Assembly (NCBI RefSeq): GCF_023913515.1
Contig: NZ_CP099391.1
Span: 3,472,001-3,536,000, forward strand
Length of the DNA: 64,000 nt
Origin: Natronococcus sp. CG52
Lineage (GTDB): Archaea > Halobacteriota > Halobacteria > Halobacteriales > Natrialbaceae
Direction of reading: 5' to 3'
Both the position numbers and the translations under genes were made by a program. A model generated the notes under the pieces. The model was not told where the DNA came from. It searched no databases and was given only the letters and a program-made list of their open reading frames with translations. This document shows positions 41,400 through 55,139 of this stretch, piece by piece; the first letter of the stretch is position 1, and every line of letters starts with the position of its first letter.

Positions 41400-44300
41400 T
41401 CAGGGATGGTCGAACGTTAGCTCACAGAGTTTCCGTTCTGCTTCCCGGAGGTGATGGGAGAACGTCGACTGAGAGATGTCTAGCGCGTCGGAGAGTTCAC
41501 TGCCCGTTTGGGCGCGAGGCGACTCGAAAAATCCGCTCCGATAGGCCGTGTGGAGGACTTCCTCCTGCCGGGGTGTGAGACGATCCACGCAGGCCGTCCG
41601 GAACGTGTGCTGCGTCTCGAGCGGCCGGCTACGGGTGTGGCGTGCGAGCAGTTCCAGGTCAGTGACGGTTTCTCGAAGACGCTCGATGAACTCCCGGACC
41701 TCTGCAGTCTGGTGAAGTTCGACGACGGCGGTCGCGACTTCCTCCTCGATGGTGAGCGAGCGAACCACTACGTCCTGCTCCAGAAACTGCGATGCGAGCG
41801 TCGGGTCGGTCAGCTGTGCCTTGATCAGCGTGCCTTCCTCGTGTTCGGAGAGACAGGTCAGCTCCTCGATAGCGATGGACTGCTCGCCGACGGTCGAGAG
41901 CTCGTCCGGCGAGACGCCCGCCGCGATAAAGAAGATGGCTGCGACGTCACCCTCCGATTGGAGAACGAATCCCTCGAACTCGATCGTACATCCCGCCTGC
42001 CGTGCGAACCGACACAGCGGCGTGTCCGCCTGCCGGGACCGGACCGTGAGTTCGACGACGCTGTCCGCCTGGAGCGTCTCTCTGGTTTCGACGGCGTTGA
42101 TCGCGTGGGCGATCGTGCTGCCGAGTTCCGCCAGCACCTCGTGATCGCGCTCGTCGGGTTGTGGGGTCCTGCCATAGACGGTCACGACGCCGTACAGTGA
42201 CTCCTCGTAAACCAGCGGGATGCTGATACACGAGCGGGCACCCCGCTTGAGGGTGGCCTCTCGCCACGAGCCGGCTCGCGGGTCGGTGGCGATATCCGCG
42301 ACGACGTGGGTTTCCCGCGTCCGAACCGCGGCAGCGATGGGATCCTCGCCGTTCGAACTCCCGTCCGTCGTGATCGTGAGCCCGTCCACGTAGCTGCCGT
42401 CGATACCGGCCCACTCTCGCGGTTCGATCGCGTCGGTGACCGCGTCGTACTCGCCGATCCAGGCGAACTCGAACCGGTCAGAGTCCGCCAATCGCTCGCA
42501 GACGGCCCGGTCGATCGCCTCGAGCGTGTCGGCCTGCACTAGCGCCTGGTCGATGTCCCGAATGAGGCCGTTGAGTCGGTCGAGACGCGTCAGTTCCTCG
42601 TTTTGCTGCTCCAGTCGCCGTTCGCCTTCGGCGCAGTCCAGCGCCGTTTCGATGGTTCCGACCATGGTCCCCGCGATGTCGACGATCGTCTCGTCGAACA
42701 TCCCGGTGCGAGTCGAGGCGAGACAGATAACACCGTGTCTGCCGAGCGGAATGAGTACGCTACTCCGGAGCAGCGACGCCGACGGCCGACTCTCGGACGT
42801 CGGGATATCGTTGTCGACGGCGATATCGTGGCTGATGAACGTTTGCCAGATCCGATCCGAGAGTCCGTCCGGGAGGCGAATCGAATCGACGTTTGCTTCC
42901 GGATCGATCCGACTGATGCCCTGCTGGAGTTCTCCGGACGTCTCATCGTACCGCCACAGCGCGGCGTACTCGACGCCGAGTACGTCCCGGGCGATGTCGG
43001 CGACCCGGTCGCGGATCTCCAGTGCCTCAGCTTCCATCAACTCCCGACTCACCTCGTTGAGCCGTTCGATGGCGTTCTGGGTCCGCTTGCGGTCGGTGAT
43101 ATCCTGGAAGATCACCCCGACTTGCTCCTTCGACCCGTCCTCGACCCGAAACGCGTACAGTTCGAGGATCCGTCCCTGCGCCTCGAGTTCGTGTTCGAAT
43201 CTGACCGGCTCTCCGGTCCGAAGAACGGTATCGTACGGCTCGAACCACTCCTCGGACGCTCCCGGAATCGCTTCTCGAATGGTCTTCCCGACCGCGTCGT
43301 CGAACCCGGAGTGCGCTTCGAACGCGGGATTCGTCTCCACGTACCGGTAGTCGGTCGGCTCCCCCGGATCGGTGTCGAGCCTTTCGAGGACGCAAAAGCC
43401 CTCGTCGATCGATTCGAACAGCGTCCGGTAGCGCTCCTCGCTCTCGCGCAGTCGTTCGTACGCTCGCTCTTTCATCCGGTGTAACTCCTGTCCGCGTAGG
43501 ATGACGTCCGTCGTGAGGTGTGAGTTATCGACGTCGAGACCTCGAAGTGCGTCTTCCCTGTCGTCTTTTCGGAGTTGCTGAACGACCGGGGTGACGTCCT
43601 CGACGCGGTGAATGATGTAGTCGATCTCGTTCGTGGCGCTGAACACGGGCGAGTTGACGGGACTCCACCACCGATCCTCGAATCCGCCGCCTTCGGATTC
43701 GGGCTGCGGAATCGGATAGTACGTTACCGGAATCATGTCGGCCTGTCGCTCGGCTTCGACCCTGGCGAGCGACTCCCGTAATCTGGAAACGCCCACGGAG
43801 TCCGCATCGTCGGGATCGGGCGGGAAGACCTCGAACAGCGTCTTTCCGATGATCTCCTCCCGTTCCGTCATCGTCGCCTCCAGGTACGCGTCGCTCACCG
43901 CCACGATCTCGTAGTTTTCCGGCGTCACGACGAGGTAGAGGCCGGGCGCCTTTTCGAACAACTGGCGGAAGGTCGATTCGGCGGCGTTCGCTTCCGCCCG
44001 CCTTCGCTCGGTGGTGTCGCGGGAGATGCCGGCGACGAACTCGACGCTGCCGTCCTGGCTGCAGATCGGGCTGAAGATGTAATCGTAGTAGCCGCTCGTC
44101 CCGGACGGATCGGTGTGGGAAATCTCGCCGGACGTGGATTCCCCGCTCTCGAGAACCCGCTCGAAGCGATCGCACAGTTCGGGCGGAAGTCCCAGTTCTC
44201 GATTGGTTTTCCCGACGTATTCGTCGCGACTCATCCCCCAAAACGCTTCCAGACGCTCGTTCGCGTAGACGTACTCCTTCTCGCTGTTCCAGACGTAGAC

Positions 44301-44670
44301 GTAATCGTCGACGTTGGAGAGTATCGCGTCGAGAAAACTCGCCCGGCGTTCGAACGCAACGCGGTTCTCGTTCGCGTCTCCGCTCGCTCGCTCGCTCGCG
44401 CTGCGCGATACCGTCGTCCTCGGCTATCGGTTCTGACGCGCCGGCATAGTCGCGCGGCCGAACCGGCTTCCACCAGACGCGTCCGCGAGCGCCGACCTTC
44501 TTGGTCTCGAGTACCCCGTCGTCGACGAGCGCGTCCAGTTTGTTGTAGACGGTCCGGGGCGTACAGTCGAATTCGGCGGCAACCTCGGGCGTCGTCAACG
44601 GCGTTCCGGGCGGAGCGAGATCGTCGACCACCTCGAGGACCGCAGTCGGTGACGGTGCGGACGAACCCAT
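41400..44670 (-). CDS. Bacterio-opsin-activator-like HTH-PAS-GAF sensor regulator, split in frame at a GAGC repeat
   Basis: The N-terminal frame (ATG 44670) gives a winged helix: TPLTTPEVAAEFDCTPRTVYNKLDALVDDGVLETKKVGARGRVWW. The downstream frame, with no start codon after the TAG at 44424-44426 until an internal ATG at 44234, encodes three PAS domains (first ending DTTERRRAEAN, then FRQLFEKAPG, then RYRTLFESIDEGFC), two GAF domains (VLGVEYAALWRYDE and RFEFAWIGEYD), a BAT-type domain and a C-terminal HTH (LTPRQEEVLHTAY...STFSHHLREAERK). The frames differ by one base and meet in a GAGC tetranucleotide repeat at 44381-44399. With four units the product is cut; three or six units would give one protein of about 1,090 residues. 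Only the 944-residue part from 44234 is a free frame with a standard start. Confidence 0.85.
44381..44399 (-). repeat. GAGC tetranucleotide tract inside a coding region
   Basis: The plus strand has 19 bases of exact period four, four GCTC units plus three bases. It lies between the HTH and first PAS domain of the sensor and coincides with the change of reading frame. Confidence 0.9.
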
Positions 44671-48097: not shown

Positions 48098-48170
48098 CAG
48101 CGGCCACCCCGCGGGGCAGGCTGCGGACCGTCGTAGGGGAGTTTGTCGCGCACGGCTATCAAGGGACGCC

Positions 48171-48230
48171 CGTCGAGGAGGGATGAGAATCTCGTCGAGG
48201 AGGGATGAGAATCCCGTCGAGGAGAGATGA
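48171..48230. repeat. Three tandem 22-bp repeats
   Basis: A 22-bp unit starting CGTCGAGGAGGGATGAGAAT begins at 48171, 48193 and 48215; the third is degenerate after about ten bases. It lies between the flavodoxin remnant and the end of the beta-CASP gene. Confidence 0.8.
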
Positions 48231-54624: not shown

Positions 54625-55139
54625 TTACTGGTCGTCCGCCCGGAGCTGCGGCAGGAACTCGTACAGCAGCAGCCCGAACGCCAGATGCTGCACCATCGCT
54701 CGTTCGACGGTCGTGCGAACGTACTCCTCGTCTTCGATGGAGTACTCTCTCGTCTGGACTTTCGCGTGCATCGCCAGGACGTCTCGTTCCTCCAGGTCGT
54801 GGAGACGGGGGGAACCGTTCCGGGGCTCAGTTGCGTTTCGAAGATCCGAGAGAGGTCGGAGAGGAGTTCCGTGCCGCGTGTCCCGTCGTGAAGCGCGACG
54901 AACAGGAGGAGAATCTCCTCGAGGAGATTCTCCTTGACGAGCGCCTCGTCGAACCGGACACCGCCGACCGACAGCGCATCGTCTAGCCGTTTCCACAGTT
55001 CGTCGAACGTCTGGTCGACATCGTCGGTCGACTCGAGATCGGCGTCGAACCGCCTATCGTGTGACACCCGTTTTGCGTCCGCCAGTGTTTCTGATAGCGC
55101 TCCGAATACCGATTCGGGGTCAGGGGGAGTCTTGCGCAT
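54625..55139 (-). pseudogene. Frameshifted PadR-like transcription regulator gene
   Basis: From ATG 55139 the minus strand encodes MRKTPPDPESVFGALSETL through FDEALVKENLLEEILLLFVALHDGTRGTELLSDLSRIFETQLSPGTV, then loses sense. In the next frame RLHDLEERDVLAMHAKVQTREYSIEDEEY ... FLPQLRADDQ follows to TAA at 54625. The two join naturally as a PadR-like winged helix (LSPGTV-x-P-RLHDLEERDVL) if one base is added at the six-G run, 54807-54812. The intact protein would be about 171 residues. The break could be a mutation or an error in the homopolymer. Confidence 0.65.

Follow-up and report, generated by a model that had tools for sequence, protein, structure and literature searches.

A gene for a multi-domain sensor-regulator in Natronococcus sp. 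CG52 is divided between two reading frames that meet at a short tandem repeat of the GAGC family, and a recent, lineage-specific expansion of this repeat has probably put the regulator out of frame. The gene lies in a stretch of 64,000 nucleotides (the window, to which plain coordinates refer) of a 4.74-Mb genome in three contigs. By its Pfam matches (BAT, 5.8e-36; HTH_10, 1e-18; PAS_4; GAF_2; three PAS domains in the sensor frame), it is assigned to the haloarchaeal BAT-family sensor-regulators, with an N-terminal HTH, three PAS domains, GAF, BAT and a C-terminal HTH_10. The orthologue of Natronococcus pandeyae has the order HTH_20-PAS-PAS-PAS-GAF-BAT-HTH_10 and the two frames of the window hold the same domains, but the window copy differs from other regulators of this type in being divided between them. 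A single continuous frame with the N-terminal HTH included, which characterises this orthologue group but not every BAT protein, is broken in the window and continuous in both orthologues, L004 and L005. The same genome carries a related open gene (C1:2823076-2825715; HTH 80% identical, open frame of 927 aa), so that some redundancy is possible.

The HTH frame and the PAS/GAF/BAT/HTH_10 frame, which extends to 41400, are offset by one base. On the minus strand, positions 44399-44381 read GCGAGCGAGCGAGCGAGCG, that is 19 nt with 100% period four and 4.75 copies (GCGA x4 + GCG; GAGC family). From its ATG at 44670, the HTH frame remains open beyond the tract as far as 43525 (381 aa), though not in register with the sensor frame. 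Upstream of the tract, the PAS frame is closed by the TAG at 44426-44424; it is devoid of ATG, GTG and TTG until the ATG at 44234, and is then open to 41400; a start at this ATG would drop the HTH and the beginning of PAS 1. The tract is located inside the coding region, and changes in unit number shift the frame between open and closed: with one GAGC unit less, an uninterrupted protein of 1088 aa results, and with two units more one of 1092 aa, whereas the present number leads to a stop at 381 aa and one additional unit to a stop at 147 aa. An earlier, sequence-only reading of the window had described a 19-base repeat of period four at the frame break of an archaeal regulator, the one-base offset, the lack of a separate start for the PAS frame and the unit numbers at which the frame is restored; all of this was borne out. 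The features are listed in Table 1.

Table 1. Features of the frame-broken regulator gene and its repeat tract (window coordinates)
Feature	Positions	Strand	Basis
N-terminal winged-HTH part (HTH_20), start ATG 44670, GGAGG just upstream	44424..44670	-	Pfam HTH_20, E 1.2e-6; N. pandeyae similar at the start and upstream of it
HTH frame as now read, 381-aa ORF, out of frame past the tract	43525..44670	-	ORF reading
TAG closing the PAS frame upstream of the tract	44424..44426	-	Frame reading
Interval that must hold the frame change	44381..44424	-	HTH frame matches orthologue up to EPIA, PAS frame from GDANENR on; L004 compared at DNA and protein level
Repeat tract GCGAGCGAGCGAGCGAGCG where the frame breaks (GAGC family, perfect period four, 4.75 units)	44381..44399	-	+16 nt vs N. 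pandeyae
PAS-PAS-PAS-GAF-BAT-HTH_10 part, +1 frame, internal stops absent	41400..44384	-	Intact full-length orthologues L004, L005
First ATG of the PAS frame, within the first PAS domain	44232..44234	-	Frame reading

Two orthologues are intact in one frame, those of N. pandeyae LS1_42 (G001/L004, 1087 aa), the nearest genus mate in the genome set, and of the more distant Saliphagus infecundisoli (G034/L005). Within the genus, the orthologue is present in two of nine genomes (G000 and G001, the latter being N. pandeyae). The conserved anchors GAACCGATAGCC and GACGCG.ACGAGAACC are separated by 55 nt in the window and by 39 nt in N. pandeyae; the surplus of 16 nt corresponds to four tetranucleotide units and to a one-base shift. 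GAGC occurs at the linker as a single unit in N. pandeyae, and the tract is absent from the linker of S. infecundisoli in the orthologue comparison. With one unit less, the window protein would measure 1088 aa, as compared with the 1087 aa of N. pandeyae. Residues 1-97 of the N. pandeyae protein align with one window frame and residues 81-1087 with the second one, the two meeting at the tract: the HTH frame matches up to EPIA, and the sensor frame from SGDANENR on, which reads SEDADENR in N. pandeyae. Because the N. pandeyae protein follows the HTH frame before the tract and the PAS frame right after it, the break is located by the alignment to the tract or its border (44424-44381). Comparison with intact homologues, which the sequence-only reading had proposed as a check, has thereby put a one-unit linker, 16 nt shorter, next to the broken one. 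A break further downstream, at a CC pair near 44362, was considered, as removal of one C there yields a plausible RERERVAFERR linker; it was rejected, since SEDADENR of N. pandeyae matches the PAS-frame SGDANENR upstream of this position. The idea that the repeat is a family trait of HTH-PAS linkers was likewise dismissed for the parsed linkers: no period-four tract was found in the motif-parsed linkers of paralogues (about half of the 30 loci remained unparsed).

These observations are probably best accounted for in the following manner: The non-conserved linker that joins the HTH to the first PAS domain would have become longer by a net 16 bases as GAGC multiplied in tandem, most simply through replication slippage from a single unit such as N. 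pandeyae still has. Since 16 is not a multiple of three, ribosomes starting at 44670 would exit the frame within the tract, and their product would be an HTH with a tail of about 290 unrelated residues. A full protein that includes the sensor half would then not be made, presumably with loss of function; such a loss is likewise assumed for the HTH fragment or for a sensor half with an internal start. Loss of one unit would restore the 1088-aa protein, and the gene may in this sense be able to revert. The 16 nt could also have arisen differently, by an in-frame expansion of 15 nt together with a single extra base at another place in the 44-nt interval. The window gene resembles an ordinary recently frameshifted gene that was broken by a short tandem expansion, in that there is a single break, the orthologues are intact and further decay is lacking; it differs in that the change comprises a whole number of repeat units, such that reversion in one step is possible in principle.

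That the break should be recent follows from the undecayed state of the rest of the gene. When changes in the sensor part were polarised with Saliphagus, the window lineage had 61 nonsynonymous and 63 synonymous changes, and the N. pandeyae lineage 73 and 65, respectively; dN/dS of the sensor part is about 0.29. Over the 968 downstream codons, stops are absent and amino-acid changes are not in excess, and therefore the break is either recent or an error of the consensus sequence. An older, decayed pseudogene was ruled out by the same data (zero stops, and amino-acid change not faster in the window lineage).

The tract itself is uncommon. In the genome, GAGC-phase words of 11 nt number 35 (counted in one register) and words of 15 nt two, of which the one besides the window's sits in an open gene of 696 aa, and the 19-nt word occurs once. 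An order-3 Markov model built on 364 kb of the Natronococcus sp. CG52 genome predicts 0.04 GAGC-phase tracts of at least 19 nt per genome and, for any tetranucleotide, 0.17 tracts of at least 19 nt per strand. Among 119 related genomes, a search in two of the four registers retrieved seven GAGC-type tracts of 19 nt, the window's own included; in the other six, the frames are open across the tract, and four of these six are corresponding sites in one ABC-transporter ATPase gene (near position 1501 in L079, L081, L082 and L083). In the transporter gene, a conserved ALARSLA-like motif apparently gives rise to the tract through its codon usage. Because seven such tracts are seen across the related genomes, the GAGC tract by itself is not extraordinary and can come from codon usage; its coincidence with a frame break is the notable part. 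An 18-nt tract of GAGC type also occurs in N. pandeyae (G001:C41:14170-14187), within a frame that reads as a putative MoxR-like ATPase. In alignments of the compared region, neither this tract nor a 15-nt tract of the window's genome changes in length between the species.

Repeat tracts that switch reading frames are well known from bacteria, and the sequence-only reading had proposed a phase-variable switch. Slipped-strand mispairing at GAGC would then have to be frequent enough for cells to change back and forth from three or six units, with a full-length regulator, to four or five, with a broken one, which appears quite unlikely. Suggestive features are the position of the tract in the coding region, where each one-unit change shifts the frame, the preserved start region and downstream frame, and the fact that a tract of such length is found once in the genome. 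It comprises, however, four full units plus 3 nt and falls under the cut-off of phasome surveys, which is five or more units for tetranucleotides in Neisseria and Campylobacter (PMC5953494, PMC6321876); it is missing from both orthologues and from those related linkers that were read, and tracts at other sites of the region (18 and 15 nt) keep their length between species. In addition, low indel rates of 3.6-4.8e-11 per site per generation were measured in two haloarchaea, Halobacterium salinarum and Haloferax volcanii (PMC9997560), and the polyploidy of haloarchaea and their gene conversion, which equalises the chromosome copies in Haloferax volcanii (PMC4056108), would damp a change in one copy. 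With too few units, no tract in the orthologues and unchanged tracts of 15-18 nt elsewhere, the proposed switch is not supported, and a static recent frameshift or a consensus error accounts for the same data. The window gene shares with tetranucleotide contingency loci, e.g., the mod genes of Haemophilus influenzae, a tract inside the reading frame in which a one-unit change moves the frame; it differs in that the units are far fewer, below the survey cut-off, and not conserved, and in that it is a regulator in an archaeon and known from one genome sequence. We therefore do not class the locus as phase-variable, although it could work like one. A young archaeal tetranucleotide contingency locus, in which GAGC slippage toggles a multi-sensor regulator, perhaps heterogeneously among the chromosome copies of a polyploid cell, is decidedly improbable.

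An error in the consensus or assembly is a less remote possibility, albeit still an unlikely one: the true linker would be in frame, and the deposited GC-rich tract would contain an extra unit or a one-base error. The lack of decay in the gene and a second, single-base break 10 kb away beside a C6 run are consistent with this explanation. The species is represented by a single genome, as the collections contain one per species and exclude near-identical records, and megablast with the two other contigs of the genome retrieved no record of the same strain among plasmid records. An error of a whole unit in a 19-nt tract would nevertheless be unusual for any platform that spans the tract, and the compared region contains few clear frame breaks. 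Among the 191 N. pandeyae genes matched in ~340-364 kb of the window's genome, 11 were flagged as frame-split; nine of these flags were inspected by alignment (all but ORFs 1136 and 999), and in our judgement two are clear mid-gene breaks, namely this regulator and a PadR gene, while the other seven look like over-extended starts, intergenic joins and likely spurious antisense frames. With so few clear breaks among the compared genes, wholesale sequence error is unlikely, and a sequence full of frameshifts was discarded as an explanation. Last, the two frames might be used as they stand, either as a functional split into an HTH fragment and a sensor half started internally at 44234, or by a +1 ribosomal shift in the tract; this we hold to be very improbable. 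Relatives possess short HTH proteins with related HTH domains, and the sensor frame is under constraint, but this constraint may be older than the break. The sole ATG/GTG/TTG start falls inside PAS 1, the HTH frame is open for about 700 nt beyond the ATG at 44234, which excludes stop-restart coupling, a recognisable +1 shift signal is absent, and both orthologues are fused.

If a single culture were found to contain molecules of three as well as of four units, the gene would be a rare archaeal example of a repeat-controlled frame, and it would have to be asked how slippage plays out when a cell is polyploid and its gene copies undergo conversion. No case of archaeal tetranucleotide phase variation was found in the open-access papers searched, and a 2025 review names archaea only as a place for possible future surveys (PMC11868660). 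If they do not coexist, the gene represents an ordinary recent frameshift and a caution against taking short GC-rich repeats for switches, as codon usage alone can yield such repeats in these genomes.

Two further sites in the window bear on its sequence quality and on its tandem repeats. A PadR-family regulator on the minus strand (54628-55139), intact in N. pandeyae, is split over two frames by a one-base deletion beside the C6 run at 54807-54812. Runs such as C6 are places where sequencing errors are common, and the PadR break is either a real pseudogene or a sequence error; situated ~10 kb from the repeat-broken gene, it keeps an ordinary broken gene or a sequence error plausible there as well. 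A tandem repeat with a 22-bp unit (CCCGTCGAGGAGGGATGAGAAT, 2.8 copies) at 48169-48230, next to a gene for a beta-CASP metallo-hydrolase, lies in a stretch that is mostly missing from N. pandeyae, and this repeat would so represent another recent tandem expansion or contraction.
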